A stretch of DNA of 64,000 bases from Brachynemurus nebulosus. Lineage: Eukaryota > Arthropoda > Insecta > Neuroptera > Myrmeleontidae. The notes under the pieces are model-generated. The model saw nothing but the letters and a program-made list of their open reading frames with translations. It had not been told where the DNA came from and did no database searches. Positions 1,334 through 60,594 of the stretch are shown here, piece after piece. Both the position numbers and the translations under genes were made by a program. Numbering within the stretch: position 1 is the first letter of the stretch; each line of letters starts with the position of its first letter. The DNA lies in NCBI GenBank assembly GCA_035578155.1, contig JAPWDM010000005.1:40748365-40812364 (forward strand), given 5' to 3'.

Positions 1334-1810
1334 ATTAAAATGAGTTAATTCGTCCTACAATATGACGGCTCAAAATGTTTTGATATGTATATATTCACTC
1401 TGGATTCACTTGTACAGGTGCCGCCATCTGTGACAAATTGTTCGAAATACAGTATAATTGTAAGTAAAGTTCAATTTCACCAACATAGTATAATTTATTG
1501 ATTTTGAATGTCATTTTTTTGATATTGGCATATCTGATTTTCTTTCTTTTTCTGTAACCTTATCTATTGTACTTGTCACTGACAGTAAAAGGTCCGGCAT
1601 TTTGAAACAAAAAAATCTTCTCTATGATTAAAATAAAAGCGTTAAACAAATATTACGACACCAAATTTCATCAGAATCCGTTCAGTAGTTTTTACATTAT
1701 GCGTAGGTACACAACACACAAAAATTTCAAATATTGTTGTTTTAATATCTAAACCGATAACAATCTACATTACCCTTACACCAGCCATCCAGAATTTTCT
1801 CGGTCATAAG

Positions 1811-2241: not shown

Positions 2242-2407
2242 GTCATAAGGAAGGTAAAATAGTAATAAAAAGTGAAGTATTCATAAAACAATAAGAATAC
2301 TATGTATTTATCACGTTGATGGTTATGTGCGCTGTGCAGCGTCAAGTTATACCTGACAATCCGATACGATTAATTAGGGACAGAAATATGTACTATACAA
2401 ATTAATT

Positions 2408-2623
2408 TTGGCCGAACCGAACCCTTCAAAAAAAAAAAAAAAAAAAAACCGGCCCCTAGCCATTTGTCTCATTATTGTTTATGCGATGATCCGTTCCCTG
2501 ACTGTCGAAATTAATCTGAATTACATTCTCGATCAAGTGGTCGGGAAACGACATTTCATATTACACGACCTAATATTATTCCAGAAATTGGCGAAAATGA
2601 CTCCGGGCTACATATACTTTTAA
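2408..2623 (+). other. Open frame within a repeat unit, probably non-coding
   Basis: A frame starting near a 20-bp A-run overlaps a sequence (around gtggtcgggaaacgacattt) that recurs three times at 2955-3490. The frame is not preserved in those copies, and no domain is recognisable. It is treated as repeat DNA. Confidence 0.5.
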
Positions 2624-2954
2624 GCATTTAAACCATAAGAATAGTTTTAACGCTTTTATTTTACCCATAGAGAAATTTTTTTATCTCAAAATGCCAGACC
2701 TTTTACTGCCAGTGGCAAGTACAAAAAAAGAAAAAGAAAGAAAATCAAAGATCCCAACATCAAAAAAGTGAACCCTAGAAATTTTCAAAATATAAATTAT
2801 ACTAAACTATGTTGACAAAATTTAACATTACTTGAATTATACTGTATTTCGAAAGAGATGTCACAGATGGCGGCATCTGTACCAGTGAATATATACATAT
2901 CACAGCATTTTGAGCCACCATATTGCAGGACGAGTTAACTCGTCTTAATCATTT

Positions 2955-3490
2955 AAAGCGTTAAACAATTCTTTAATGCTCAAAAAAGTGTCGATATTTA
3001 TCTGTACTACATCGTTACGCGTTGACATTGACCAAGTGGTCGGAAAATGGTATTTCATATTACACGACCTAATATTATTGCAGATAATGGCGAAAATTAC
3101 TCCAGGCTACAAGAGTTTTATTTATAATTAGGGAACGGCTTTTAAACATTTCTTCAATGCTCAGAAAAGTGTCGATGTTTATCTGCATTACCTGCGGTTG
3201 GCCAAGTGGTCGGAAAACGACATTTCATACTACACGACCTAATGTTATTCAAGTTAATGACGGAAATGATTCCAGGATACAATAAATATATTCAGGGTTA
3301 AAGAGTTGCCTTTAAACATTTCTCTAGTGCTTAAAGAAGTGTCGATATATATCTAAATTAAATAGTTGGGCAAGTGGTTGGAAAACAACATTTCATATTA
3401 CACGACCTAATGTTATTCCAATTAATGGCGGAAATAACTCCGGGCTACAAGAATTCTATTTACAAACAATTGCTTTTAAATATTTCTATA
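2955..3490. repeat. Tandem repeat, ~168-bp period, three copies
   Basis: The signature aagtggtcggaaaa followed by tacacgacctaat recurs near 3035, 3204 and 3372, giving a period of about 168 bp. An additional upstream copy is at about 2537. Each unit also carries a 'caaaaaagtgtcgatattta'-like segment and an 'actcc(a/g)g(g)ctacaa' segment. Copies are diverged by scattered substitutions. Confidence 0.8.
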
Positions 3491-4864: not shown

Positions 4865-5751
4865 TTAACCAACAATTAGAAGGCCCTCATCGGGGAATTC
4901 GTACGGTGGTACTTCTAAATTCAATGGGGCAGGACCTTTTCGGATACGTCCGGACGCGTCGTAATGGGATCCGTGACATGGACAATAATATCCACCAAAA
5001 TCACCAGCGTTGGCAATTGGGACACATCCCAAGTGTGTACATACACCAATCAGTACCAACCATTCGGGTTTCTGGACACGTTCACTATCGTGTTGCGGAT
5101 CCCGAAGTTCGGCAACGTTTACGGATCGTTCGGTACTGATTTCTTCTTCCGTTCTGTGCCGAATAAACAGGGGCTTTCCTCGCCACTTGAATGTAACACT
5201 TTTACCTTCCGGAATATCAGCCAGTTTGATTTCAATTTTGGCCATGGCCAGCACATCGGCTGACGCGCTCATTGAACTAACGAACTCTGTTACGATGGTT
5301 TTCGCAGCATAAGCGCTAGCAACAGCAGAACCTCCAACAAGAACATACGAAAAATTTTTCCTAGCTTCTTCCGTATCTCTACTTCTTACATTTGGATCTT
5401 TAACTGCCGGCCTTCTGTACGCAGAAAAGTCTGGCACCTTGATATCCGTGTGAGCAAATCTGATTTGAGTGGAAGCTATAAAATTCAAACGTTACATAAC
5501 CAACACATTTTCACTAATTTTTTAGTCTAAAATTTACCTGCTGGTCCAGAACTCACTCTAATTTTGCCCGTGAGTGGTTTCTTTTCAATATTATCGATTA
5601 CATTTAAACTTGGAGGTAACGCTGCAACTGTCATCGCCTTTGGTAATTGAACGGCAACAAATGACGGGCTAACCATCCCATTCGATACTACTTGAGTAGT
5701 ACCTTTTAAATATCCAGCGAGATTTGCTGATTTGGCCACTACATTCATCAT
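4865..5751 (-). CDS. RFeSP: Cytochrome b-c1 complex Rieske iron-sulfur subunit, mitochondrial
   Basis: This is the nuclear-encoded subunit of respiratory complex III. It passes electrons from ubiquinol to cytochrome c1 through a 2Fe-2S cluster at the inner mitochondrial membrane. The coding sequence is join(5538..5751, 4865..5475) on the minus strand, with a 62-bp GT-AG intron splitting an Ala codon (residue 72). The product is 274 residues, the normal precursor length. Cluster ligands are visible in CTHLGC (C217, H219, C222) and CPCHGSH (C236, C238, H239), and C222 and C238 match the conserved disulfide positions. Residues ~1-75 form the basic, hydroxylated targeting presequence. A Gly/Ala-rich hydrophobic helix at ~114-139 is the single membrane anchor, followed by the Rieske fold to the end. 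The first of two adjacent Met codons was taken as the start; the second is equally possible. The frame is intact and the gene appears functional. UQCRFS1 is the vertebrate name. Confidence 0.97.
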
Positions 5752-8924: not shown

Positions 8925-9036
8925 CGAAAACTCGAAATTCAGCTATTACAGTAGGTCTCATGACGCAATCTGAGTCCGGGACTATGGCAGAAATCTGTTT
9001 TGAGGTCCCTAGAATACGAAAATGATATTCACTAAA

Positions 9037-9120
<84 letters not shown>

Positions 9121-9270
9121 GTGTTCCCACGATAACTCTCGAACGAAACGTCTAACGCTTATGAAATTTTGTGTGCGGACTGGATTCTGAATTGGCTTGG
9201 CTAAGTTCGTTAGCCAGACACCTCGGATGCCCAGAAGTAGGTTTTCTGGCCATTTTTTATCATTCGATCC
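8925..9270 (-). repeat. Copy of the (AT)n-core repeat family
   Basis: The flanks of the (AT)n tract at 9044-9117 resemble those at 19.2-19.9 kb and 20.2-20.6 kb, in the opposite orientation. Shared landmarks are 'agtccgggactatggca', 'gaggtccctag' and 'gataactctcgaacgaaacgt'. The inverted termini seen in the 19198-19932 copy are not apparent here, so this copy is incomplete. The apparent open frame through the AT tract is an artefact. Confidence 0.75.
9044..9117. repeat. (AT)n microsatellite
   Basis: About 37 uninterrupted AT dinucleotides. Confidence 0.97.
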
Positions 9271-9769: not shown

Positions 9770-11160
9770 GAATCGATTTTGAAAATTTTTTCACTAATAA
9801 TTAATAATGTTAAAAAATTAAACCATTTCAAATGGATTTAAGGTATTTTATGTGAGGTCAAGGTTTTCGGGACCTAAAAAGGCCAGAAATTAATTAACCA
9901 ATCGATTTTAAAAATTTTTTCACAGTTAGTAAGTTAAAGTATTTGAATTAATTAATTAAATGATGTCCGCAAGAAGCTTACGGACTGCCATAAGTTATAT
10001 GAGATCCTTAGAACCCTTTTCTTACTGTTAGAGTACTAGACTTGTATGAGTTTCGCCAGGATTTACTGATCCCATAATTGTAAAAAATAAACTAAACGAC
10101 CAATTTTAAAAATTTCTTCACTGTTACAGAGCTAAACTATTTTAGATAGATTTAGAATACATTATGTAAGGTCCGCCAGGGTCCACAGGACCCAAAAGTG
10201 TCAAAAATAAACTAACTGACCGATTTTGAAAATTTTTTCACTGTTACAGAGCTAAACTATTTTAGATAAATATCGATTACGTTATGTAAGGTCCGCCTGG
10301 GTCCATAGGACCCAAAAGTGTCAAAAATAAACTGCCTGATCGATTTTGAAAATTTTTTCACTGTTACAGAGCTAAACTGTTTTAGATAAATATAGATTCC
10401 GTTATGTAAGTTCTGCTAGGGTCCATAGGATCCAGAAGTGTCAAAAATAAACTAACTGACCGATTTTGAAAATTTTTTCTCTGTTACAGAGCTAAACTAT
10501 TTTAGATAAATATAAATTACGGTATGTAAGGTCCACCAAGGTCCATAGAACCCAAAAGTGTCAAAAATAAACTAACTGACCGATTTTGAAAATTTTTTCA
10601 CTGTTACAGAGCTAAACTATTTTAGATAAACATAGATTACGTTATGTAAGGTCTGCCAGGGTCCATGGGATCCAAAAGTGTCAAAAATAAACTAACCGAC
10701 CGATTTTGAAAATTTTTTCACTGTTGGGGAACTAAGCTATTTTAGATAGACATACATTACGTTATTTAGGGTCCGCCAGGGTCCATGGGACCCAAAAGTG
10801 GTAAAAATAAACTAACCGACCGATTTTGAAAATTTTTTCACTGTTACAGAGCTAAACTATTTTAGATAAATATAGATTACGTTATGTAAAGTCTGCCAGG
10901 GTCCATCGGATCCAAAAGCGTCAAAAATAAACTAACCGACCGATGTTGAAAATTTTTTCACTGTTGGGGAGCTAAGCCATTTTAGATACATATAGATTAC
11001 GTTATGTAAGGTCTGAAGTGTCAGTAGGACCTAAAAGTGTCAAAAATAAAATAACTGACCGATTTTGAAACTTTTTTACTATTACCGAGGTAAACTATTT
11101 TAGATAGGTACAGGTTGTGTTATCTGAGATCCACAACTGTCCTGCGGATGCAAATGCGGC
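9770..11160. repeat. Tandem array, 120-bp unit
   Basis: The anchor 'gaccgattttgaaaattttt' recurs at about 10217, 10337, 10457, 10577, 10697, 10817, 10937 and 11056, so the period is 120 bp with one 1-bp deviation. More diverged units extend the array left to ~9770. Each unit contains 'gagctaaactattttagata' and 'gtccgccagggtcca'. One subset of units (near 10725 and 10965) shares 'ttggggaactaag/ttggggagctaag' in place of 'ttacagagctaaa', suggesting a higher-order pattern. Confidence 0.93.
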
Positions 11161-11182
11161 GTAGAATGCTACACAACGGGTT

Positions 11183-11326
<144 letters not shown>

Positions 11327-11364
11327 CATAAAGTCCGCCTAGAATATACGGTCGAGCTGATTTT

Positions 11365-11665
11365 TTAATGAGGTCCACCGGGATCTTGCAGATCCGAAAA
11401 CGCCAGTAATAAGCTATCGAACCGATGCTAAAAAATTTCTCACTGCTAGAGAACTAAATTATTTTAGATGGATACAACTATGCTGCACAAAATTCGTTCG
11501 GGTTCTTGGGTCCCCAAAAATACCAAAACTAATTACCCAACCGATTTTAAAAATTCTTTTACTCTTAGAAAGCTAAACTATTTTAAATAGGTACAGGTCT
11601 TAGATCCGCCAGTGCCCAAGATTTGGAAATTCGCTATGTTATGCAGATGCTGCGACAGGGGTATT
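11365..11665. repeat. Diverged 120-bp units ending in a TIR-like sequence
   Basis: Two strongly diverged array units (with 'gagaactaaattattttagat' and 'aaagctaaactattttaaat') are followed by 'ttcgctatgttatgcag' and 'atgctgcgacaggggta'. That terminus matches the right inverted end of the element at 19198-19932. The array may therefore lie inside or next to a member of that transposon family. No matching left end was found upstream. Confidence 0.65.
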
Positions 11666-19197: not shown

Positions 19198-19507
19198 TAC
19201 CCCTGTCGCAGCATCCTGCATAACATAGCGAGTTTCCGATTATAAAAATTAGTTTTTCTCGGTAACCAGTTTATACACAATGATGGTTTAAAATCTTTTT
19301 TATCTGATTTTTCTCCTCTTTCTAATGGTGTAAAAAAATGTTGCAAAAATCTTTGAAATTGGGAAAATTATAGCAAAAAGAAATTTTTTTCATGAAAAAT
19401 GCTCAAAAAAACATGCTTACGGCATCAGACGTGTCTGACTAACGAATTTCCAACATTTTCATCAAATTTCGTAAAAATAGGACATTTCATTCGAAAGTTA
19501 TCGTGCG

Positions 19508-19575
<68 letters not shown>

Positions 19576-19932
19576 TGAATATTATTTTCGGTTTCTAGGG
19601 ACCTCAAAATAAATTTTTGCCATAGTCCCGGACTCAAGTCGCGTCATGACAGTGGCTGTAATAGCTGAATTCCATTCTGGAAATTCTCCAAAAATCTTGC
19701 CATAAATGCGATGCTCGGAACATGGTTTTTTGGGCATTTTTCGTGAAAAAAATTAAATTTTGCAAAAATTTTCCCAAATTTAAAAATTTTTGTAACATCT
19801 TTTTACACCATTGAAAAAATCACATAAAAAAGGTTTTTGAACAATAATTATTCTGTCAACTAATTTCCGACAAAAACTAATTTTTGTAAACGGAAATTCG
19901 TTATGTTATGCAAGATGCTGCGACAAAGGTAT
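19198..19932. mobile_element. (AT)n-core transposon with ~40-bp inverted termini
   Basis: The left end 'tacccctgtcgcagcatcct' continues with 'gcataacatagcgag'. The right end is the near inverse 'atgctgcgacaaaggta' preceded by 'cgttatgttatgcaag'. The boundary TA may be a TA duplication. The interior holds an (AT)n tract at 19510-19572 framed by sequences shared with 8925-9270 and 20222-20625. It is non-autonomous, with no transposase. Confidence 0.82.
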
Positions 19933-20221
19933 TTTATATGCTACATATTACATTAAATTTATAATAATCACTGCTTGTACGGAACACTATTGGCGCAAGT
20001 ACAACTTGCACTTGGCGGCTTTTTTATTTCGTAATTATGTACATGCCATAGATATATGAATAGTATTCATATATCAATGGTACATGCATAGGTCTTTGAG
20101 GAATATGTATATAGTATCTTACTACATACATATTGGTATGTACATACTAACTCTATAAGTCGTTATTTGACTTCAGTAACGAAATATAGTATATGGATAA
20201 TCCATATCAAATATCTCCTTA

Positions 20222-20346
20222 TTGAAAAACCATGTTCCTGACGTCAGACACGTCTGGCCGAAGAACTCATCCAAGATTTTTGGACTTCCAACGTTCTCAC
20301 CAAATTTCGTAATCCTAGGACATTTCGTTCGTGAGTTATCGTGCGG

Positions 20347-20409
<63 letters not shown>

Positions 20410-20410
20410 C

Positions 20411-20496
<86 letters not shown>

Positions 20497-20625
20497 TTTA
20501 GTGAAGGTTATTTTCGGGTTCTAGGGACCTCAAAACAAATTTCTGCCATAGTCCCCGGCTCAGGTCGCGTTATGACAGCGGCTGTAATAGCGTGTATCCA
20601 TTCTGGAAACTCGCTAAAAAGAAAA
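20222..20625. repeat. Third copy of the (AT)n-core family, ends missing
   Basis: 'cacgtctggc', 'ttatcgtgcggacac', (AT)n at 20350-20493, 'ttctagggacctcaaaac' and 'catagtccccggctca' parallel the 19198-19932 copy. The 40-bp termini are absent. YIYI-type open frames across the tract are microsatellite artefacts. Confidence 0.8.
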
Positions 20626-23776: not shown

Positions 23777-23849
23777 GGATCGTTGGTGTAGTGGTTAGCA
23801 CGCCTGGCTAGTTACCAGGAGATCCTGGGTTCGATTCCCGGCCGATCCG
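23777..23849 (+). tRNA. tRNA-Thr(AGT)-like sequence, possibly a pseudogene
   Basis: The sequence folds as a cloverleaf: acceptor GGATCGT/CCGATCC, D arm with A box TGGTGTAGTGG, anticodon stem CCTGG/CCAGG with loop CTAGTTA, T arm with B box GGTTCGATTCC. Anticodon AGT would read Thr codons. Two features are abnormal. The acceptor stem has a T/C mismatch at its seventh pair, and loop position 37 is T where functional tRNAs have a purine. No CCA is encoded, as expected, and no clear run of four or more T lies immediately after, although TTTTTT occurs ~8 bases downstream. It may be a decaying gene or a tRNA-derived repeat. Confidence 0.6.
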
Positions 23850-35944: not shown

Positions 35945-36017
35945 TACCCTTGGTGGGACTCGAACCCACAATCCTCGGCTTAGGAGGCCGATGCCTTATC
36001 CATTAGGCCACAAGGGC
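35945..36017 (-). tRNA. tRNA-Arg(CCT)
   Basis: On the minus strand the 73-nt sequence forms a full cloverleaf: acceptor GCCCTTG/CAAGGGT with discriminator A, anticodon stem TCGGC/GCCGA with loop CTCCTAA (anticodon CCT, reading AGG), and B box GGTTCGAGTCC. CCA is not encoded, as is normal in eukaryotes. T-rich runs (TTTTT then TTTTTT) follow within about 20-30 bases on the minus strand and would terminate RNA polymerase III. It appears functional. Confidence 0.95.
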
Positions 36018-49816: not shown

Positions 49817-49822
49817 CGTCTT
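49817..49822 (+). repeat. Left 6-bp target-site duplication CGTCTT
   Basis: Identical to 60589-60594 at the other end of the 10.8-kb element. Confidence 0.93.
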
Positions 49823-50164
49823 AGTAGATAGGCTAGGAGAGAGCTACCCCACAGTAGAACCCCAATTTTCCGGACTACTTTTTTGACGATGTTAAGAACC
49901 GTGTAGTTTGGGGTCCTACTGTACCTAGAATATGAATTGATCTCTGACCCGGCACGTACCAAGTACATGTATTTAAAATTTGTTGTTGACATTTGACCCC
50001 ACACTCGCTCATACTGTTGGCCTTGAAATTCATAAGAGATGAGTCATTACCAGCAACCAAATTAATTTATGTTAACCCATTATGCGTCATCACAATTTAC
50101 TTATAACAATTTGGTTTTGTGTTAACCCATTACCCGCCAGCACTGACGTAGTTTTTGAATGCAA

Positions 50165-50222
50165 ACCTAACGCATGCGCAGACTGAATTTAAGTACACGA
50201 CGCATGCGCAGACTGAATTTTA
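50165..50222 (+). repeat. Direct repeat 'cgcatgcgcagactgaattt'
   Basis: Two copies ~31 bp apart, each containing the palindrome CGCATGCG. Mirrored near 60190-60245. Confidence 0.85.
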
Positions 50223-50251
50223 GGTTACAATTTGATAGATGGGGTACACTA

Positions 50252-50625
50252 CCGCGTCAAAAATGTGGGGTTACCCTAACTCGGGGGTGGCCCCAAACTT
50301 TTGACGCCGTACTGTACTTAAATTTTTGGTACACTGCCGTGTCAAAAGTGCGGGCCCCCTGACCAAAAAGGTATCCGATCACTTTTTAAGCGTACTGTAC
50401 GTGCAAACCTTGGCCCCAACACGCGCTTGCCTTAATTACGTCATCTTAAACGAACTATCACGTCAAAAAATGTGGGGAATACCCTAACTCGGGGGTGGCC
50501 CCAAATTTTTGACGCCGTACTGTACTTAAATTTTTGGTACACTGCCGTGTCAAAAGTGCGGGCCCCCCTGAGCAAAAAGGTATCCGATCACTTTTTGAAG
50601 CGTACTGTGCTTATTACGTGCAAAT
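50252..50625 (+). repeat. Two ~150-bp direct repeats in the left TIR
   Basis: Units at about 50252-50405 and 50463-50615 share 'taccctaactcgggggtggc', 'cactgccgtgtcaaaagtgc' and 'aaaggtatccgatcactttt'. Their short frames are not coding. Mirrored in the right TIR. Confidence 0.88.
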
Positions 50626-50759
50626 CTTGGCCTCACTTAACTGCGTCATCTTAAATTGGGTGCGGTCGCTAACGATAAATTTTGTCGGGGGCGCCCTGTA
50701 CCAAGCGCTAGATTTTAAGATTAGACTCCGGGGTCCAGATTTCTGACCGCTACTGTACT

Positions 50760-52260
50760 GTAAATCGAGTGTCTACTGTACTTTTCAACAAGTTTAAGCC
50801 TGTTTTCAGCAAAGTCAGCACTTTTTTAATTTGTTTATTTATATAAGTTTTAATTTAAAAAAAATGTTTATTTAAGATTTTGATGACTCAGCAATTTTTT
50901 TGTTTGGATTTCAAATACGAAATAGTCTTCTTGGAATTTTTAATTTATGGCCTGATTGTTGAATTATAATTATAGTATGATTCATACAAGCGGGGATTTT
51001 TGTTATATTTGTTTATTTATATAATAATTTTTGGATCATGTAATAATTTTAAAATTCTTTATTTAAGATTGGGAGGCCGCTAAATTTTGTGGGGGCACTG
51101 TACCAAGCGCTACCGCAAAACTAACTTCAAACTCCAGGGTCCAGATGTCTGACCGCTACTGTAGTGCCGGAAATTTGGGTGTCAACTGTAACTCAGGGTT
51201 TTTTTTGTATATTTAACCTTGGAAAATTCCAGGAATTTTTATTAGTTTTAACATAAACAAACAACTAATAATTAAATGTTTGTTTTAGCTGAATTATGAT
51301 CGTAAGACTCATATAAGGAGTTTTTTTGGTATAAGAAAGATGACGTCATGGAATATTAATGAGTTAAAAAATTGTTTAGTAAAAAATATCACCCATTGTA
51401 GGCCTCAAGCAAGAAATTATTTTTATCAGTTTTAATACTTTAACATTTAACCTACAGTGACCAATTTTTTAGTTAACTAACAGAGAAGTTCTTGAAATTT
51501 TAACAAGTTACAAAAAACATTACTTCTTATGGTGCACAACATTTTTGAATTTGACTGTAGCACAAAACTGTTTCTATATCAAACGAAAATTATCTGAAAT
51601 AATTCAGTATGTACATATGTATAGACTCTGTACATTAAAAATATTTTATGTATACACTCTGTATATTGAGAATAAGAAAGAAAATTTGTATATAATTTTA
51701 ATTTTTATGAATACTAGTAAACGAATTGTATAGCCATTTATGAATAAGTATTAAATCTAATTATAAAATAATTTATAAATATTGCAAAAAATTTGTTTAA
51801 TCAGCAAAATCAATGTATATCATTTTAATACTGATACATATTTATATTAGGGTATAATAGTATTGTATTTAACATTTTTAAACAGAATAAAAGTTCAATT
51901 TTTAGTTTTAAATTACTATAAGTTAAACACGTCGCTTAATATAAAAATGATAACAGCATTGAGTTTTACTAAATTTTTAAGTCTGTAAAATCAAAATTTT
52001 TTATAGACTAGAACATTTTGAATTTGCTACTCTATCATTAACATACAAATAATATCATGTATATATAACGGGTGTATATTTAGTATTTTTAATAAATATT
52101 TTAGTATACAGGGTGTATCATGAAATATGCTTTTCAATTAGAATAATAAATTTCATAAGATTTTTGTTAATACTCTTATATGTTAACGAAAGAAACTTTT
52201 TGCTGTAAAAAATAGGGGAATGCAGGGTAATAATTAAATAAAACGCACATATTTTTTTTT
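50760..52260. other. Outer TIR, AT-rich non-coding part
   Basis: No gene. A third, more diverged partial repeat of the 'ccagatgtctgaccgctact' segment is near 51132. The mirror is 58151-59651. Confidence 0.6.
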
Positions 52261-52328
52261 TTTAAATTTTATTTATAGAATATGTATACAAAAAATTAAA
52301 TTGCTTAAATCTATATATTACTTAAAAT

Positions 52329-52814
52329 CTATTTATTTTCCATATAAAAATTTTTTAAAAGAATACAATTTTCTAATGAACAAATTTTATCTGAATGAAG
52401 CATACAGCGTCTTGAATAATATTCATCTCGCAGAATGGAAATCTTCGGTACATCAAATATTTCTTCCAAATTCAAAATCCACGGCTGGTTTTCGGTACCA
52501 TCAAACAAACTTGATATCCATTTCTTCTTTTCACCACCCTTGACGTATATAACATCATACTTCTTTAATATAGGTTTCAATATGGTATGAAGTTTTTTGT
52601 ATGGAATAAATCCATACGACCAAGGTATGCCATGCCAATTTCGGTAAAGCCAACTGGCTACTCGTTGATATTTCTTCGGCAACTCGTTGAAATCAAACGG
52701 TGCGTCGAATATAAGATGTAATATATCATCCGAATTTTCTGCAGCAATACCAACTTCTTTAAAATAAAATTCGTTGTTAGCTCCTTGATAGCCTTGTATG
52801 TCAAGAAACGCCAT
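52329..52814 (-). CDS. 161-residue TIR-borne protein (left copy)
   Basis: It is identical to the product of 57597-58082; see that entry for the protein description. This copy reads leftward toward the element's left end. A TATA box lies at 52861-52868 on the minus strand. Because it sits in the TIR, its sequence can be kept identical to the other copy by recombination between the arms. Confidence 0.85.
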   Translation of the reverse strand: MAFLDIQGYQGANNEFYFKEVGIAAENSDDILHLIFDAPFDFNELPKKYQRVASWLYRNWHGIPWSYGFIPYKKLHTILKPILKKYDVIYVKGGEKKKWISSLFDGTENQPWILNLEEIFDVPKISILRDEYYSRRCMLHSDKICSLENCILLKNFYMENK

Positions 52815-52860
52815 TTTTTACCGCCACCGTAGAACTGAATTTATTCACACAATCCACAAC

Positions 52861-52868
52861 TTTATATA
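52861..52868 (-). promoter_or_regulatory. TATA box of the left 161-residue gene
   Basis: TATATAAA on the minus strand, about 47 bases before the ATG. Confidence 0.65.
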
Positions 52869-52977
52869 GAATAATTAAAAGTGGTGGGGGTAGTTAGTTA
52901 ATTTGTGGAACGTATTCGAAAATGGCTATTAATAGCTATTGCTAGTTTACCATCAAATTACAAACTGTTAATAATAT

Positions 52978-53154
52978 TTAGCACATTTGTGAGTACCAGG
53001 TTCTTTTCACTTTAAGACCTAGTGATTTAAGGAATGCTAAATTTTCAGGTGAAATGTGTTGTTGCTCAAAAGTTTTACGTTTAATGATCTTAGGTTTCGA
53101 AAGTCCTTTGCTAGGTTCTCTAGCGGTGGACTGCGCTGAATTGTAAATTAACAT
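52978..53154 (-). CDS. 58-residue basic protein (left copy)
   Basis: Identical to 57257-57433; see that entry. It reads leftward, upstream of the 161-residue gene on the same strand. Confidence 0.65.
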   Translation of the reverse strand: MLIYNSAQSTAREPSKGLSKPKIIKRKTFEQQHISPENLAFLKSLGLKVKRTWYSQMC

Positions 53155-53260
53155 GGTTCCAAAATGTAATTGTTTTACCACGAAAGTATAATTTTCAACG
53201 AAAGAGATGTTAACTCTTTGACAACCACCGGTAAATAGATAATATTTTATGTAAGTTCAA

Positions 53261-53270
53261 CTATTTTATA
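53261..53270 (-). promoter_or_regulatory. TATA box of the left 58-residue gene
   Basis: TATAAAATAG on the minus strand, about 107 bases before the chosen ATG. Mirror of 57141-57150. Confidence 0.6.
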
Positions 53271-53344
53271 CCCTTCAACCATGATAAGGTGTATAAGCTT
53301 GAGTATAACTCAGCAAATTATATAGCGGTGGTGACGTAACACAC

Positions 53345-53540
53345 AAATGCGGTGGTTGTGTTGCGTTTGTGGCGGTGGCGGTGTTTGTGTGGCGGTTGTG
53401 TGGTGGTGGCGGTGGTGTTTGTGTGGCGGTGGCGGTGGTGTTTGTGTGGTGGCGGCGGTGGTGTTTGTGTGGCGGTGGTATTTGTATGGTGGTTTCGGTG
53501 GTTGTGTGGTGGTTGTGGGGGTGGCGGGGTAGCAGCGGTG
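53345..53540 (+). repeat. G-rich GGTGGC/GTGT tract (left TIR)
   Basis: A ~195-bp run of ggcggtggtgtttgtgtg-type repeats on the plus strand. It reads open in all three plus frames and two minus frames, an effect of the repeat rather than coding. It lies just upstream of the minus-strand 58-residue gene's TATA box. Confidence 0.92.
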
Positions 53541-53658
53541 TTTGCGGCTGACGTGCACAACTTTATCATTAATTCAATCGAAGCAGCAATTTACTGTAGA
53601 CAATAAATCGGTGGTGACATCTCGCGGTGTTTGTTGAACGCAATATCTAAATTAATCA

Positions 53659-53750
53659 ATCTGGTGACGTTCCTCTTCCCTGCTCTTATGCTGGAAGATT
53701 ATTAGATATCGATTTTAGATAAAATATTGGAAAATTTCGGTTACAAAATA
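53659..53750. other. Start of the single-copy core
   Basis: The TIR symmetry ends here. The segment includes 'atatcgattttagataaaat', which recurs with changes at about 54165 ahead of the second cysteine-rich gene. Confidence 0.7.
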
Positions 53751-53751
53751 C

Positions 53752-53758
53752 TATAAAT
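53752..53758 (+). promoter_or_regulatory. TATA box of cysteine-rich gene 1
   Basis: TATAAAT in 'actataaatacaactgaatt', followed ~25 bases later by 'ccggatgtca', a likely initiator. The whole block is repeated ahead of gene 2 (54222-54228). Confidence 0.78.
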
Positions 53759-53824
53759 ACAACTGAATTACTAACCGGATGTCACTTGTTGGTTAAGTTC
53801 CAGAAGGTAAACAACAACAGCAAC

Positions 53825-54013
53825 ATGCCGATTTGTGGTATTTGTAAATTTCAACCGTCACAGTGTAAGTGTGCCTTCTACGAGTACTGTGATAGGTGTC
53901 GAAATGAAAAACGAATTTGCATGTGTTGTAAACGATGTATGATGCCATTTCCAAACTGTGTTTGCAATTATATAAACTGTACCACATGTAAAGGCCGCTG
54001 CAATTGCAAATAA
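53825..54013 (+). CDS. Cysteine-rich small protein, copy 1 (62 residues)
   Basis: Function is unknown. The 62-residue product has 16 cysteines in CxxC and CxC pairs (C4/C7, C14/C16, C22/C25, C32/C34/C35/C38, C45/C47, C52/C55, C59/C61), no signal peptide, and several Lys/Arg. That arrangement suggests a zinc- or metal-binding mini-protein acting inside the cell. The first ATG in a good context (aacATGc) was chosen. An ATG in 'ccggatgtcac' upstream opens only five codons and may lie at or before the transcription start. The gene is the first of a direct duplication; copy 2 follows 278 bp downstream. I do not recognise a family. Confidence 0.78.
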   Translation: MPICGICKFQPSQCKCAFYEYCDRCRNEKRICMCCKRCMMPFPNCVCNYINCTTCKGRCNCK

Positions 54014-54221
54014 TTTAGTAAAATCAATCATCTGATTGCCACATAATACATATTGACCAATTCCACGGTTGCTCAAACCAACGTAAACATTTATTTATAA
54101 CGCAATGACCAGCGATGTAATGAGGCATAATGGATATTTTGTGTAACAGTGGAATTGGTCAATATCGATTAAATATCGATTTTTTATAAAATATTAGATT
54201 ATTTGGTTTCAGTCAAAATAC
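54014..54221. other. Spacer within the duplicated unit
   Basis: It contains 'taatgaggcataatggatat' and 'aacagtggaattggtcaata', which reappear after copy 2. This shows the duplication unit (~470 bp) includes promoter, gene and downstream sequence. Confidence 0.75.
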
Positions 54222-54228
54222 TATAAAT
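54222..54228 (+). promoter_or_regulatory. TATA box of cysteine-rich gene 2
   Basis: TATAAAT in the same context as 53752-53758, with 'ccggatgtca' ~25 bases downstream. Confidence 0.78.
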
Positions 54229-54291
54229 ACAACTGAATTATTAACCGGATGTCATTTGTTGGTTAAGTTCCAGAAAGTAAACAAAAACAAC

Positions 54292-54480
54292 ATGCCGATT
54301 TGTGGTATTTGTAAATTTCAACCACCACAGTGTAAGTGTTCCTTCCCCGAGTATTGTGATAGGTGTCGAAACGAAAAACGAATTTGCATGTGTTGTAAAC
54401 GATGTATGATGCCATTTCCAAACTGTGTTTGCAATTATGTAAACTGTACCACATGTAAAAGCCGCTGCAATTGCGAATAA
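54292..54480 (+). CDS. Cysteine-rich small protein, copy 2 (62 residues)
   Basis: It differs from copy 1 at six residues (S12P, A17S, Y19P, I50V, G57S, K62E), while all 16 cysteines are kept and there is no length change. At the DNA level I count ten substitutions over the 189 bp, three of them silent, so the ratio gives no strong sign of purifying selection. The two copies may have diverged in partner binding. The role is unknown, as for copy 1. Confidence 0.78.
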   Translation: MPICGICKFQPPQCKCSFPEYCDRCRNEKRICMCCKRCMMPFPNCVCNYVNCTTCKSRCNCE

Positions 54481-54540
54481 TTTAGTAAAATCAATCACCT
54501 GATTGCCACATCATAAGTATTGACCAATTCCACGGTTGTT

Positions 54541-54697
54541 AAAACAAACATTAGCATTTATTTAGTAATGAGGTATAACGTATATTTTGAGTAACAGTGG
54601 AATTGACTAATAGCTATTAATCAGTATTAAAGTTTCTGTTGAATACTCAAAATATACATTATACCTCATTATTAAATAAATGTTAATGTTTATTTGA
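54541..54697. repeat. Inverted repeat downstream of the cysteine-rich genes
   Basis: The left arm (54541-54597, with 'taatgaggtataacgtatat') and the right arm (54640-54697, with 'atatacattatacctcatta') pair over ~50 bp with mismatches. A related single arm is at 54080-54130. It could be a terminator, a structural RNA or a recombination remnant. Confidence 0.75.
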
Positions 54698-54829
54698 TAT
54701 TTTCCATTGGTTGTGGTGTATAAACACTGATCATATGAAGGTGTGGTTGCTTTAGAGTAACTTAATTTGTAGCTGTGTGGGAATAAACATATCGGTGGGG
54801 TAAAATGAGCAACTCAAATTTTGTAGCTG

Positions 54830-54916
54830 GGGTGGTGGTGGTGGTGGTGGTGGTGGTGGTGGTGGTGGTGGTGGTGGTGGTGGTGGTGGCGGTGGTGGTG
54901 GTGGTGGTTTTTGTGG
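54830..54916 (+). repeat. (GGT)n tract
   Basis: About 28 GGT/GTG units with one GGC. It is preceded by 'taaaatgagcaactca', a phrase repeated at 55732-55747 before the next G-rich tract. The valine-only frame is an artefact. Confidence 0.95.
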
Positions 54917-54977
54917 TGGCAACTCATAATTTATTTAAGCGACGTGCTGTAACAGAAATTGGTAGTGTATTGGCAAA

Positions 54978-55340
54978 ATGTCTGAACAACACGGTGTTGA
55001 GTTAAGTATAAGTGATCTGTGGACCACTTTTACTGCCACTGATACAACAATGGATCCGGTTTTGGAGAAGTTGAATAAACTTGGTGCTGGTAAACCATTC
55101 AAATCGCTATCTACACTCAAACCGTATGAAACGTGGAAAATTCTTGATGTACGACGCATGGAAACTCGATATGGGCCAGCGGTTGCGGTGGAACTTGCAG
55201 ATGCTCAAGTGTTCCTTCCAAAACGATTCGCGGATTTGGATGAGCAGACCATTCAATGTTTACGTACAGGACAATATTTTATTACATATAAAGGAACTGA
55301 TTCTAGTGGTTTTTTACATATTGTGGAATTTAGTAAATAG
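54978..55340 (+). CDS. 120-residue protein, possible OB-fold nucleic-acid binder
   Basis: Function is unproven. The product has an acidic N-terminus followed by 'KILDVRRMETRYGPAVAVEL' (54-73), 'VFLPKRF' (78-84) and 'GQYFITYKG' (98-106). This is a pattern of alternating beta strands with a TRYG turn and ends at residue 120. The small size, the strand pattern and the basic 'LPKR' strand suggest an OB-like fold such as a single-strand DNA-binding protein. I associate this TRYG...LPKR pattern with small ORFs in invertebrate mobile elements, from memory only. The start is ATG in 'caaaATGt'; Met25 (55050) is an alternative. AATAAA is near 55446. It lies after the (GGT)n tract and before the zinc-finger gene. 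Confidence 0.8.
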   Translation: MSEQHGVELSISDLWTTFTATDTTMDPVLEKLNKLGAGKPFKSLSTLKPYETWKILDVRRMETRYGPAVAVELADAQVFLPKRFADLDEQTIQCLRTGQYFITYKGTDSSGFLHIVEFSK

Positions 55341-55756
55341 CTATCACATGTATGATGTTAGATGTAAGATTAAGGTAACTGTCAGATATGAAAATGAATT
55401 GATTTACTTTTTAATTTTAATGCTGTAAACGTATATTTCATTAAAAAATAAATTATTTTACGTATAAATTTTTATATTGTTCTTATTTTACAACACACTA
55501 GAACCTCCCAAATTATATCTTGAATTATGATAAGACTCTCAGTAGGTATGGACGCAGTTGGCAACCCAATGTAATTGCCTATATTCAGGAGAAAGTATTC
55601 TAATGTTGGTGTTGAGTCACCTGACACTTGCATATGGCTCTTCATTCATTTTTCTGAACTAATTTCCAAACCGAAAGAGCGTAATGGGGGCAAAATGTGT
55701 AAGCCGGATGTCAACAGCTACTTCATGGAGTAAAATGAGCAACTCAGATGTGGTGT
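55341..55756. other. Intergenic spacer in the core
   Basis: It holds the probable 3' end of the 120-residue gene and, at 55706-55747, 'gccggatgtcaacagc' and 'taaaatgagcaactca', echoing the promoter and pre-tract phrases of the other core genes. No gene. Confidence 0.65.
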
Positions 55757-55758
55757 TT

Positions 55759-55792
<34 letters not shown>

Positions 55793-55820
55793 TGGCGGTG
55801 GCGGCGGTGGTGGTGGTGGA
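55757..55820 (+). repeat. (GGC/GGT)n tract
   Basis: ~64 bp of GGC and GGT triplets ending just before the zinc-finger gene's TATA box. Confidence 0.95.
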
Positions 55821-55821
55821 G

Positions 55822-55829
55822 TATATAAG
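55822..55829 (+). promoter_or_regulatory. TATA box of the zinc-finger gene
   Basis: TATATAAG, about 70 bases before the ATG and abutting the G-rich tract. Confidence 0.78.
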
Positions 55830-55892
55830 TAATCGCTAACACAATTCTGAATTAATCTTGTAAGACTAGTTGAGCTTTACACATCTATTATA

Positions 55893-56759
55893 ATGTTCGA
55901 GTGTACGCGGTGCTATAAAAGCTTCTCGCGGAAAGATTCTCTTTCACGTCATATAAGAAATACACATATGCGAGAATTTTCACCAAAAAGGTTTGAAAAT
56001 AGTTACTCTCTTGATCCGCTAAAAAGACAAACATTAGACACGGCTGATGACTTATCTAGTTATGATACCGGGAGGAATGATGTTGATGATGAATTTCTAA
56101 ACAATAAAGTTGAAGAAAGGGTCAATCCACTTGAACAAAGAATTAAAGCTGCATCAAAAGCAATTCAAACTAAATTTAATAATTTAAGAAATCAAAATAA
56201 TGTTTACACACCCAGCGATGAGTGTAATAACAGGGTTTTAACCACTTCTGATAGTGGAACTGTTATCATTCCCAAGTTAACTACAGCTTTGCAAACCCTT
56301 TTGGATATTTTATTAATCAAAGAAACTCAAAATAAAGTTGAGGATTCTAATGAACGAATAGCAATAAAACGTCCAGTCAATTCAACGGACCAAGAGCTGC
56401 TTGCTAAGCGTATCAAATACAACGACTCGGAAAATGCTAATGGGCAATCGAAAAAAATAAAATACTGGCATAATCCTAATACTTTAATAGATGAATTACG
56501 ACGTTTATACGAGACTTCAGAGACTGGTGAAAAAATACTCAATATTATTCGGAGTATAGAGGAAAATAAAAACATATTGTTTAACGTTGACGATAGTGAA
56601 GCTTTAATCGAAGAGTTAGATGCTTTAAGAGAAACTACTGTCGGTCAAGAAATATTCTCTATACTTCGTGAACTTCAAAAGGCTGATGTTATTGAGCCAC
56701 TAGGTGATTATCTGGATGAAACTGATAAAGAAGATGCTAGCGATTATGATGATGATTAA
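55893..56759 (+). CDS. 288-residue C2H2 zinc-finger protein with acidic tail
   Basis: An N-terminal C2H2 finger (C4, C7, H20, H25) is followed by a charged, probably flexible region with basic KKIK/RPVN segments. Two related helical segments follow at ~198-224 and ~238-264 (LIDELRRLY...ILNIIRSIE and LIEELDALR...IFSILRELQ). The last ~20 residues are almost all Asp/Glu/Ser, ending DYDDD. A single finger with an acidic tail would fit a transcriptional activator or a DNA-bound adaptor of the element; this is inference. The start is the first ATG after a TATA box. The stop codon (56757-56759) lies just inside the right TIR, so the TIR's inner edge coincides with the gene's end. I do not recognise an orthologue. 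Confidence 0.85.
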   Translation: MFECTRCYKSFSRKDSLSRHIRNTHMREFSPKRFENSYSLDPLKRQTLDTADDLSSYDTGRNDVDDEFLNNKVEERVNPLEQRIKAASKAIQTKFNNLRNQNNVYTPSDECNNRVLTTSDSGTVIIPKLTTALQTLLDILLIKETQNKVEDSNERIAIKRPVNSTDQELLAKRIKYNDSENANGQSKKIKYWHNPNTLIDELRRLYETSETGEKILNIIRSIEENKNILFNVDDSEALIEELDALRETTVGQEIFSILRELQKADVIEPLGDYLDETDKEDASDYDDD

Positions 56760-56870
56760 TTTAGATATTGCGTTCAACAAACACCGCGAGATGTCACCAC
56801 CGATTTATTGTCTACAGTAAATTGCTGCTTCGATTGAATTAATGATAAAGTTGTGCACGTCAGCCGCAAA

Positions 56871-57066
56871 CACCGCTGCTACCCCGCCACCCCCACAACC
56901 ACCACACAACCACCGAAACCACCATACAAATACCACCGCCACACAAACACCACCGCCGCCACCACACAAACACCACCGCCACCGCCACACAAACACCACC
57001 GCCACCACCACACAACCGCCACACAAACACCGCCACCGCCACAAACGCAACACAACCACCGCATTT
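56871..57066 (-). repeat. G-rich tract (right TIR), C-rich on the plus strand
   Basis: Mirror of 53345-53540. It lies upstream of the 58-residue gene on the plus strand. The Pro/Thr/His-rich frames across it are repeat artefacts. Confidence 0.92.
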
Positions 57067-57140
57067 GTGTGTTACGTCACCACCGCTATATAATTTGCTG
57101 AGTTATACTCAAGCTTATACACCTTATCATGGTTGAAGGG

Positions 57141-57150
57141 TATAAAATAG
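57141..57150 (+). promoter_or_regulatory. TATA box of the right 58-residue gene
   Basis: TATAAAATAG; a start near 57170 would leave a ~85-base leader before the ATG. Confidence 0.6.
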
Positions 57151-57256
57151 TTGAACTTACATAAAATATTATCTATTTACCGGTGGTTGTCAAAGAGTTA
57201 ACATCTCTTTCGTTGAAAATTATACTTTCGTGGTAAAACAATTACATTTTGGAACC

Positions 57257-57433
57257 ATGTTAATTTACAATTCAGCGCAGTCCACCGCTAGAGAACCTAG
57301 CAAAGGACTTTCGAAACCTAAGATCATTAAACGTAAAACTTTTGAGCAACAACACATTTCACCTGAAAATTTAGCATTCCTTAAATCACTAGGTCTTAAA
57401 GTGAAAAGAACCTGGTACTCACAAATGTGCTAA
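57257..57433 (+). CDS. 58-residue basic protein (right copy)
   Basis: The first in-frame ATG (gaaccATGt) gives 58 residues. The frame is open for nine codons further upstream but without an ATG. The product is Lys/Arg-rich, with 'KPKIIKRKTFEQQ' and 'ISPENLAFLKSLGLKVKRTW', the latter a short amphipathic helix followed by a basic stretch. There is no signal or membrane segment. A nucleic-acid-binding or small structural role is possible but unproven. It is followed 163 bp later by the 161-residue gene on the same strand. An identical copy is in the left TIR. Confidence 0.68.
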   Translation: MLIYNSAQSTAREPSKGLSKPKIIKRKTFEQQHISPENLAFLKSLGLKVKRTWYSQMC

Positions 57434-57542
57434 ATATTATTAACAGTTTGTAATTTGATGGTAAACTAGCAATAGCTATTAATAGCCATTTTCGAATACG
57501 TTCCACAAATTAACTAACTACCCCCACCACTTTTAATTATTC

Positions 57543-57550
57543 TATATAAA
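57543..57550 (+). promoter_or_regulatory. TATA box of the right 161-residue gene
   Basis: TATATAAA, ~47 bases before the ATG, with 'gtgtgaataaattcagttc' at the expected transcription start. Confidence 0.68.
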
Positions 57551-57596
57551 GTTGTGGATTGTGTGAATAAATTCAGTTCTACGGTGGCGGTAAAAA

Positions 57597-58082
57597 ATGG
57601 CGTTTCTTGACATACAAGGCTATCAAGGAGCTAACAACGAATTTTATTTTAAAGAAGTTGGTATTGCTGCAGAAAATTCGGATGATATATTACATCTTAT
57701 ATTCGACGCACCGTTTGATTTCAACGAGTTGCCGAAGAAATATCAACGAGTAGCCAGTTGGCTTTACCGAAATTGGCATGGCATACCTTGGTCGTATGGA
57801 TTTATTCCATACAAAAAACTTCATACCATATTGAAACCTATATTAAAGAAGTATGATGTTATATACGTCAAGGGTGGTGAAAAGAAGAAATGGATATCAA
57901 GTTTGTTTGATGGTACCGAAAACCAGCCGTGGATTTTGAATTTGGAAGAAATATTTGATGTACCGAAGATTTCCATTCTGCGAGATGAATATTATTCAAG
58001 ACGCTGTATGCTTCATTCAGATAAAATTTGTTCATTAGAAAATTGTATTCTTTTAAAAAATTTTTATATGGAAAATAAATAG
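57597..58082 (+). CDS. 161-residue TIR-borne protein, possible degenerate RNase H-like fold
   Basis: Function is unproven. Notable blocks are 'FLDIQGYQG' at 3-11, 'FKEVGI' at 18-23, 'WLYRNWHGIPW' at 55-65, 'VIYVKGGEKKKWI' at 88-100 and 'CMLHSDKICSLENC' at 137-150. A DxQ on a first strand, a 'YVKG' strand in the middle and a C/H-rich block near the end in place of the usual HxxxxD are reminiscent of DEDD-type exonuclease folds with the acidic catalytic residues lost. If so, it would be a non-catalytic domain. I recall similar ORFs in invertebrate mobile-element loci but cannot verify this. The start is the ATG in 'taaaaaATGg'. AATAAA overlaps the stop codon (58074-58079) and a second is ~55 bases on. 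It is identical to the left-TIR copy. Confidence 0.85.
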   Translation: MAFLDIQGYQGANNEFYFKEVGIAAENSDDILHLIFDAPFDFNELPKKYQRVASWLYRNWHGIPWSYGFIPYKKLHTILKPILKKYDVIYVKGGEKKKWISSLFDGTENQPWILNLEEIFDVPKISILRDEYYSRRCMLHSDKICSLENCILLKNFYMENK

Positions 58083-58150
58083 ATTTTAAGTAATATATAG
58101 ATTTAAGCAATTTAATTTTTTGTATACATATTCTATAAATAAAATTTAAA

Positions 58151-60180
58151 AAAAAAAAATATGTGCGTTTTATTTAATTATTACCCTGCATTCCCCTATT
58201 TTTTACAGCAAAAAGTTTCTTTCGTTAACATATAAGAGTATTAACAAAAATCTTATGAAATTTATTATTCTAATTGAAAAGCATATTTCATGATACACCC
58301 TGTATACTAAAATATTTATTAAAAATACTAAATATACACCCGTTATATATACATGATATTATTTGTATGTTAATGATAGAGTAGCAAATTCAAAATGTTC
58401 TAGTCTATAAAAAATTTTGATTTTACAGACTTAAAAATTTAGTAAAACTCAATGCTGTTATCATTTTTATATTAAGCGACGTGTTTAACTTATAGTAATT
58501 TAAAACTAAAAATTGAACTTTTATTCTGTTTAAAAATGTTAAATACAATACTATTATACCCTAATATAAATATGTATCAGTATTAAAATGATATACATTG
58601 ATTTTGCTGATTAAACAAATTTTTTGCAATATTTATAAATTATTTTATAATTAGATTTAATACTTATTCATAAATGGCTATACAATTCGTTTACTAGTAT
58701 TCATAAAAATTAAAATTATATACAAATTTTCTTTCTTATTCTCAATATACAGAGTGTATACATAAAATATTTTTAATGTACAGAGTCTATACATATGTAC
58801 ATACTGAATTATTTCAGATAATTTTCGTTTGATATAGAAACAGTTTTGTGCTACAGTCAAATTCAAAAATGTTGTGCACCATAAGAAGTAATGTTTTTTG
58901 TAACTTGTTAAAATTTCAAGAACTTCTCTGTTAGTTAACTAAAAAATTGGTCACTGTAGGTTAAATGTTAAAGTATTAAAACTGATAAAAATAATTTCTT
59001 GCTTGAGGCCTACAATGGGTGATATTTTTTACTAAACAATTTTTTAACTCATTAATATTCCATGACGTCATCTTTCTTATACCAAAAAAACTCCTTATAT
59101 GAGTCTTACGATCATAATTCAGCTAAAACAAACATTTAATTATTAGTTGTTTGTTTATGTTAAAACTAATAAAAATTCCTGGAATTTTCCAAGGTTAAAT
59201 ATACAAAAAAAACCCTGAGTTACAGTTGACACCCAAATTTCCGGCACTACAGTAGCGGTCAGACATCTGGACCCTGGAGTTTGAAGTTAGTTTTGCGGTA
59301 GCGCTTGGTACAGTGCCCCCACAAAATTTAGCGGCCTCCCAATCTTAAATAAAGAATTTTAAAATTATTACATGATCCAAAAATTATTATATAAATAAAC
59401 AAATATAACAAAAATCCCCGCTTGTATGAATCATACTATAATTATAATTCAACAATCAGGCCATAAATTAAAAATTCCAAGAAGACTATTTCGTATTTGA
59501 AATCCAAACAAAAAAATTGCTGAGTCATCAAAATCTTAAATAAACATTTTTTTTAAATTAAAACTTATATAAATAAACAAATTAAAAAAGTGCTGACTTT
59601 GCTGAAAACAGGCTTAAACTTGTTGAAAAGTACAGTAGACACTCGATTTACAGTACAGTAGCGGTCAGAAATCTGGACCCCGGAGTCTAATCTTAAAATC
59701 TAGCGCTTGGTACAGGGCGCCCCCGACAAAATTTATCGTTAGCGACCGCACCCAATTTAAGATGACGCAGTTAAGTGAGGCCAAGATTTGCACGTAATAA
59801 GCACAGTACGCTTCAAAAAGTGATCGGATACCTTTTTGCTCAGGGGGGCCCGCACTTTTGACACGGCAGTGTACCAAAAATTTAAGTACAGTACGGCGTC
59901 AAAAATTTGGGGCCACCCCCGAGTTAGGGTATTCCCCACATTTTTTGACGTGATAGTTCGTTTAAGATGACGTAATTAAGGCAAGCGCGTGTTGGGGCCA
60001 AGGTTTGCACGTACAGTACGCTTAAAAAGTGATCGGATACCTTTTTGGTCAGGGGGCCCGCACTTTTGACACGGCAGTGTACCAAAAATTTAAGTACAGT
60101 ACGGCGTCAAAAGTTTGGGGCCACCCCCGAGTTAGGGTAACCCCACATTTTTGACGCGGTAGTGTACCCCATCTATCAAA
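58151..60180. other. Outer right TIR, non-coding
   Basis: Mirror of the left outer TIR, with the same TACTGTAC-type motifs and two ~150-bp direct repeats (about 59796-59948 and 60006-60159). Short frames on either strand are present in mirrored pairs and lack domains. Confidence 0.75.
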
Positions 60181-60588
60181 TTGTAACCTAAAATTCAGTC
60201 TGCGCATGCGTCGTGTACTTAAATTCAGTCTGCGCATGCGTTAGGTTTGCATTCAAAAACTACGTCAGTGCTGGCGGGTAATGGGTTAACACAAAACCAA
60301 ATTGTTATAAGTAAATTGTGATGACGCATAATGGGTTAACATAAATTAATTTGGTTGCTGGTAATGACTCATCTCTTATGAATTTCAAGGCCAACAGTAT
60401 GAGCGAGTGTGGGGTCAAATGTCAACAACAAATTTTAAATACATGTACTTGGTACGTGCCGGGTCAGAGATCAATTCATATTCTAGGTACAGTAGGACCC
60501 CAAACTACACGGTTCTTAACATCGTCAAAAAAGTAGTCCGGAAAATTGGGGTTCTACTGTGGGGTAGCTCTCTCCTAGCCTATCTACT

Positions 60589-60594
60589 CGTCTT
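60589..60594 (+). repeat. Right 6-bp target-site duplication CGTCTT
   Basis: Identical to 49817-49822. Confidence 0.93.

Follow-up and report, generated by a model that had tools for sequence, protein, structure and literature searches.

A probable gene-bearing satellite of a Polinton family in the neuropteran Brachynemurus nebulosus

What kind of mobile element has the ends of a Polinton (Maverick) and a gene set that is not the standard Polinton one? The question is raised by an insertion in a 64,000-nt stretch of Brachynemurus nebulosus contig JAPWDM010000005.1, hereafter the window, whose coordinates are used for all element positions. The insertion spans 10,766 bp between perfect 6-bp duplications (CGTCTT) and consists of two 3,836-bp arms, identical as reverse complements, around a 3,094-bp core; the arms account for 7,672 of the 10,766 bp (71%). 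These measurements agree with a preliminary description of the sequence, which called it a complete Polinton-type insertion and suggested a new lineage or a satellite of one. Six rightward frames of note lie in the core and right arm, in the order cys1, cys2, ob120, zf288, g58 and g161 (Table 1). The terminus reads 5'-AGTAGATAGG, and its 21-base form, with up to 3 mismatches allowed, matches the window at the two ends of the element only (shuffles, 0/100). No similar sequence was found in the rest of the 64-kb window by blastn at E ≤ 1e-3. We conclude that the window element is very probably a non-autonomous, gene-bearing Polinton satellite that would use the replication and integration proteins of a longer partner in trans.

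The terminus was used to search the genome (960,095,421 bases). The first 101 terminal bases gave 942 first-look candidates, and all 40 that were scored are 100% identical. The exact 28-base terminus has 57 matches, compared with 0 for a reversed control, and these form 28 facing pairs and one lone end (C1:158789544-158789571) that has no partner in the exact-pattern search. Seventeen pairs span 9,651-11,250 bp, one spans 13,059 bp and 10 span 16,699-18,767 bp; we refer to the last group as long copies and to the others as short or non-long copies. Flanks were read for 27 pairs (all except C129), and their left 6-mers are all different. Perfect 6-bp direct duplications flank 26 of the 27, and the termini were not found consistently on a non-Polinton transposon, so that the Polinton-type ends and duplications named in the preliminary description stand. 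Such 6-bp duplications and 5'-AG ends are Polinton features according to Kapitonov and Jurka 2006, as cited in an excerpt of PMC8097293. The termini here begin AGTAGA, of the AGT type common to Polinton-encoding elements, and the excerpt gives the terminal motif (AGT)2, a terminal inverted repeat (TIR) of 46-1,447 bp and a length of 12.7-24.6 kb for intact vertebrate Polintons. Long TIRs, a further Polinton feature, are present in the window element at 3,836 bp, above that vertebrate range.

Longer elements with the same ends and a Polinton gene set, for which the preliminary description had proposed to look, are the long copies. Their gene content was established by tblastn on four fetched copies and by Pfam on the proteins of one, L033/L034, in which we find an integrase (rve, 4.6e-15), a double-jelly-roll capsid (8.4e-124), an A32-like ATPase (3.3e-10) and a phospholipase A2-like protein (9.2e-13). 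A 1,163-amino-acid (aa) protein of this copy contains DVNNLYG, NNAVFG and YTDTDS, which we take to be PolB motifs, and the PolB of the long copies is assigned on that assumption. Its 126-aa protein resembles the adenovirus-type protease, again by motifs only, and a 258-aa protein is called minor-capsid-like from its position; Pfam gave no convincing match to either. The three further long copies have the same gene set at 97.8-100% identity, with the capsid match in two pieces in one of them. Each of the 10 long pairs encloses an integrase match (592 candidates, 40 of them scored), and g161 occurs once in each of the four fetched copies, at the left end, with 100% protein identity. The TIRs of three measured long copies are 992-993 bp, within the published range, and 99.4-99.7% identical. 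In the 18.8-kb long copy L039 (C69:367706-377200) the start of the left gene row is shifted inwards by about 2 kb relative to the remaining three fetched long copies. The long partner thus looks like an ordinary insect Polinton family with TIRs of 992-993 bp, and for that reason the new lineage of the preliminary description is not needed; its alternative, a satellite, is the branch that the long same-ended Polintons support.

We examined 12 non-long copies, 11 fetched and the window element itself, by tblastn with the long-copy proteins. The window element has no match to the PolB, integrase, ATPase, protease, phospholipase or major capsid of the long copies, and the same six are unmatched in the stretches read of the 11 fetched copies. 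For PolB this is a better test than Pfam, since Pfam also misses the PolB of the long copy. Neither the protein-primed PolB nor the retrovirus-like integrase of Polintons was found in the window element, and of the capsid proteins, packaging ATPase and protease it retains a minor-capsid-like stub only. At 10.8 kb it is also shorter than the published intact vertebrate Polintons (12.7-24.6 kb). These absences bear out the view that the gene set is not the standard one; the word complete fits the element as an insertion but not as a Polinton, as PolB, integrase, ATPase, protease and major capsid are without a match.

One could ask whether the element is a transposon of another superfamily, of the foldback type, that has 6-bp duplications and long arms and is unrelated to Polintons. 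Long, internally repetitive arms do occur elsewhere, as in Galileo, whose arms were also extended by recruiting internal sequence (excerpt of PMC3573991, which adds that Polinton inverted repeats, too, are reported to have expanded). Galileo, however, belongs to the P superfamily and has 7-bp flanking sequences according to the same excerpt, the ends of the window element are those of a Polinton, and the identical terminus on Polinton-encoding copies contradicts this explanation, which we regard as barely credible. For a Polinton satellite, the same genome contains a coding-complete partner with the same ends and related arm sequence. Because the ends and the 6-bp duplication are shared and the integrase and predicted polymerase are absent, the enzymes of the partner likely replicate and integrate the element in trans.

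Alignment with the long copies indicates where the arms come from. Positions 1-958 of the window arm match the left half of a long copy at 93.8%, positions 1256-3078 at 97.7%, through g161 up to the 3' end of the capsid gene, and positions 3151-3452, past a jump over the capsid gene, at 65.4%. The right half of the long copy matches the arm in its terminal kilobase and a few short repeats only. Four further non-long copies have the same mosaic, with outer arms at 88-98% and inner pieces at 65-78%. As aligned, the left Polinton arm without its major capsid gene is the counterpart of each arm of the short element, in the terminus, the subterminal repeats and g161, and each arm finishes in a diverged g58 and a minor-capsid stub; we infer that the left arm replaced the right one. 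The lack of a nearby poly(A) signal after zf288 would also fit left-to-right arm copying: the first hexamer lies at +567, compared with +56 to +155 for the other five genes, and a gap of that length follows 6.5% of positions; the long copies point to the left arm directly. Identity falls abruptly, from about 98% to 65%, which points to a recent sharing of the outer arm with the helper, the inner arm having diverged long ago or having another Polinton as its source.

The two arms of a copy are far more alike than arms of different copies. Among 11 non-long copies, 33,173 aligned bases of paired arms contain 14 mismatches (0.04%) and 5 gaps; for the 10 fetched copies, the comparison covers 2.6-3.6 kb at the inner end of the right arm. 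When left arms are compared across 10 window-type copies, they show 0-62 mismatches per ~2,490 bases (mean 27.9 over 45 pairs, ~1.1%), so that within-copy arms are ~26 times more alike. Arm length varies from 3,478 to 4,082 bp in ten fetched copies, and within the compared part paired arms need few gaps or none to align. Copy-specific lengths with nearly gap-free pairs are not what arms evolving independently across jumps would show; they fit a protein-primed replication of linear DNA in which one arm is the template for the other. At a rate of 2.8e-9, zero arm differences would make the window insertion younger than ~140,000 generations, if there has been no conversion.

Perfect 3.8-kb arms might also arise if the second arm were a copied or folded contig. 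One short copy, C74:36763701-36774593, has mirror-image flanks, the right one matching the left exactly as a reverse complement in all 40 bases read, as a chimeric read or a real palindrome would produce; this palindrome around a whole element may be genuine or an assembly fold. An assembly artefact is nonetheless very improbable as an account of the class: matching direct duplications stand on both sides of 26 of the 27 tested copies, and doubled arms were found in 10 of the 10 fetched copies measured, with their copy-specific lengths.

The short copies could instead be simple defective Polintons, made by internal deletion and arm duplication and amplified by chance, with no lineage of their own. 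The gene content bears on this. The order g161-g58-[cys1, cys2, ob120, zf288]-g58-g161, with the core in either direction, is found in 9 of the 11 fetched non-long copies, and the private genes cys1, cys2, ob120 and zf288 occur in 10 of the 12 with the window element included. Two others, L035 and L037/L038 (10.1 and 13.1 kb), represent a second satellite type, in which the helper gene p249 is truncated to residues 43-249 (96%), zf288 has only a distant relative (46-47%) and g161 is matched in pieces. The absent capsid gene, the stub, the arm doubling and the truncated p249 of these two copies are what a defective Polinton might leave. Against it, the four fetched long copies contain nothing that matches cys1, cys2 or ob120, the inner arm is just 65% like the long copy, and the cys genes are better conserved in their coding sequence (179/189 positions identical between cys1 and cys2, gapless) than in their flanks (236/280 identical, 29 gap columns), with a ratio of nonsynonymous to synonymous change (dN/dS) of ~0.5 on ten changes only. 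We therefore consider a merely defective Polinton unlikely.

The short class appears to have been amplified recently, since all 40 scored zf288 matches, of 967 candidates in the genome, are at 99-100%; for g161 the 40 scored are all at 100%, of 1,339 candidates. Five of the 40 zf288 matches lie inside the 28 exact-ended pairs, leaving at least 35 further zf288 places without an exact 28-base end pair, which presumably have variant or broken ends.

On a different view of the private genes, the short copies belong to the Polinton community as a regular segment or cargo vehicle and benefit the long copies instead of being their parasites, as one hypothesis on the many segments of Drosophila Vesanto virus supposes. 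Long and short copies have g161 in common, the private genes recur in 10 of 12 non-long copies, and Drosophila Vesanto virus has many segments with similar terminal repeats (excerpt of PMC8363768, itself cautious on the repeats). But each of the four fetched long copies holds the full gene set, and an absent capsid gene with a minor-capsid stub resembles loss, not division of labour; a segment is in our judgement quite improbable, and a satellite that likely parasitizes a virus-like parasite remains our preferred reading.

How far the frames behave as genes was assessed from their length, context and composition. In shuffled sequence the longest frame reached 288 aa in 0 of 500 cases and 161 aa in 1 of 500. 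All six gene starts have an A at -3, compared with 41 of 127 ATGs, and a TATA box lies 40-110 bases upstream of four of the six (ob120 and g58 excepted), compared with 14% of positions. Codon periodicity is strong in zf288, above 2,000 of 2,000 random stretches, and fair in ob120 and the cys genes, which 1-2% of random stretches equal. The preliminary description placed two genes in each TIR, and these are g161 and g58. The latter is probably a gene because a 63-aa relative (32/60 columns identical, 53%) sits between two capsid-type genes of the long copy. The last 7 bases of zf288, stop included, overlap the right arm. Its C2H2 finger (Pfam E 5e-5, just below the curated cut-off) is the single Pfam match among the element proteins and the six frames of the core and right arm. 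Single-sequence folds are poor, with a predicted local distance difference test score (pLDDT) of 39.7 for g161 and 49.0 for ob120. Foldseek lists several single-strand-DNA-binding proteins (SSB) and OB proteins for ob120; as none passes E 0.001, its reading as an OB-fold SSB is tentative. By resemblance only, g161 might be a decayed DEDD exonuclease.

Table 1. Features of the window element (window coordinates; ORF, open reading frame)
Feature	Position	Strand	Basis
Target-site duplication CGTCTT, left copy, 6 bp	49817-49822	.	direct reading
Left arm (TIR, 3,836 bp), related to left arm of long Polinton copies	49823-53658	+	alignment
Subterminal arm part: clustered TACTGT motifs, stem-loop near tip	49823-51222	+	motif count, folding
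g161, 161 aa, left copy	52329-52814	-	ORF; protein-identical gene once at left end of 4/4 fetched long copies
g58, 58 aa, left copy	52978-53154	-	ORF; 53% to 63-aa gene of long copy
Minor-capsid-like stub, left copy	53187-53285	-	residues 203-235 of the 258-aa protein of long copies, 67%
cys1, 62-aa cysteine-rich protein	53825-54013	+	ORF
cys2, 62-aa cysteine-rich paralogue of cys1	54292-54480	+	ORF, alignment
ob120, 120 aa, tentative OB-fold SSB	54978-55340	+	weak: pLDDT 49, Foldseek nothing at E ≤ 0.001
zf288, 288 aa: one N-terminal C2H2 zinc finger, acidic tail	55893-56759	+	ORF, Pfam
Right arm, 3,836 bp, inverted left-arm copy	56753-60588	-	alignment
Minor-capsid-like stub, right copy	57126-57224	+	tblastn
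g58, right copy	57257-57433	+	ORF, relative in long copy
g161, right copy	57597-58082	+	ORF, tblastn
Target-site duplication CGTCTT, right copy, 6 bp	60589-60594	.	direct reading

Relatives of several of these proteins were sought. Against 5.8 billion proteins, g161 gave 5 word-sharing candidates, none at E ≤ 0.001, and ob120 gave 3, none at E ≤ 10; the Rieske gene of the window, used as a control, retrieved many insect proteins, so the collection includes insects, and the word filter is strict. In viral contigs, searches with g161, ob120 and zf288 found no relatives, and the terminus, ob120 and cys patterns went unmatched; prokaryote genomes contained no relative of g161. Two contigs matched by the g161 motif pattern, which passed the window control, were set aside as GC-rich and with no related frame by eye. 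Between zf288 and the neighbouring protein pieces of the long copy we found a 16-residue match at E 0.001 only.

Several observations weigh against the satellite reading. The length of ob120 is unremarkable (47 of 500 shuffles reach 120 aa), the periodicity of g161 is marginal (8% of random stretches) and g58 has none. In the short copy L046, zf288 matches as two overlapping pieces. The 1,163-aa PolB of the partner draws from Pfam zinc-finger models and a sub-cut-off piece of endonuclease VII, with no polymerase, and from the PDB a zinc-finger protein at E 0.1, again with no polymerase. One of the 27 pairs (C74:36763701) is without a direct duplication, 40 candidates were scored per probe, and the comparison of right arms in the 10 fetched copies covers the inner part given above. 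The inner arm at 65% could derive from a different, older Polinton, and the identity of arms within a copy could result from conversion after insertion or in part from assembly. The satellite is known here from its sequence.

Other features of the element may be regulatory. The outer 1.4 kb of the arm contains 11 TACTGT motifs (both strands; 10 in one direction), compared with at most 3 per 1.4 kb elsewhere in the window (50-bp scan steps), and stem-loop folding of the first 120 bases of the arm beats 200 of 200 shuffles; the cluster and the stem-loop may be binding sites. GGT/GCG-rich arrays are present at 53351-53518, 54831-54919, 55759-55819 and 56909-57031. Two of them precede ob120 and zf288, and the others separate g58 from its core neighbour in each arm; they are possible promoter elements. 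Downstream of cys2 lies an inverted repeat of 52 bp (92% complementary, 50-bp loop, 54542-54695).

The surrounding host sequence includes the Rieske protein frame (window 4865-5491, - strand), at up to 83% identity among the best 120 of 7,993 matches, which include many insects such as Anabrus simplex, as well as tRNA-Thr(AGT) at 23777-23849 (+) and tRNA-Arg(CCT) at 35945-36017 (-). A tandem array of 120-bp period and about nine units occupies 9929-11068, and related repeat-rich segments in both orientations lie at 8967-9188, 11115-11396 and 19427-20620, with listed arms 89-98% complementary and 9-11 kb apart.

A satellite of this kind could have arisen by a copying accident that put the left arm on both ends, through a displaced strand folding back on the terminal repeats or an end-to-end template switch. 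One arm would then template the other, in replication as linear DNA or through conversion. Through recombination the outer arm, whose similarity to the helper is ~94-98% in the window copy, would keep pace with it, and an older, separate lineage would be marked by the inner arm (65%) together with cys1, cys2 and ob120 as private genes.

Virophages and satellite viruses are smaller replicons with their own genes that depend on a larger viral helper. The window element resembles them in its small size, its own genes and a probable dependence on a larger virus-like helper. It differs in that this helper is an endogenous animal Polinton, in that the element keeps no capsid gene beyond a stub and in that its dependence is a predicted one. 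Bidnaviruses are not known to be integrated with 6-bp duplications. For Bidnaviridae, genes of foreign origin are believed to be borne by Polinton terminal repeats (excerpt of PMC4061559), as in the arms here; the PolB and parvovirus-type genes found there are both absent from the window element, in which Pfam has no match to Bidnaviridae- or Vesanto-type PolB or to parvovirus-type replication or capsid genes in the six frames of the core and right arm. The open-licence literature, searched by title and start of abstract (Repbase and subscription papers lie outside it), yielded no description of a satellite or non-autonomous form of a Polinton/Maverick, and Polinton-like viruses appear in it as parasites of giant viruses. 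Polintons themselves are thought to be virus-like, although particles have not been observed (excerpt of PMC8097293).

We propose tentatively, at slightly less than an even chance, that the endogenous Polintons of this insect are accompanied by long-lived satellite lineages, with a doubled helper arm, outer arms kept in step with the helper, arms made identical at each copying, an SSB replication gene of their own and private cysteine-rich and zinc-finger genes. With the same reserve, such lineages might correspond, in animals, to virophage-like parasites. A satellite that carries genes and was amplified recently, beside helpers that are nearly identical, would record in the genome that Polintons replicated not long ago; it indicates that the arms of Polinton-type elements can double and carry genes, and makes the existence of hyperparasites of Polintons, like those of giant viruses, a testable question. 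If the arms are made identical at copying, comparison of the two arms would date each insertion, as the long terminal repeats of retroviruses do.

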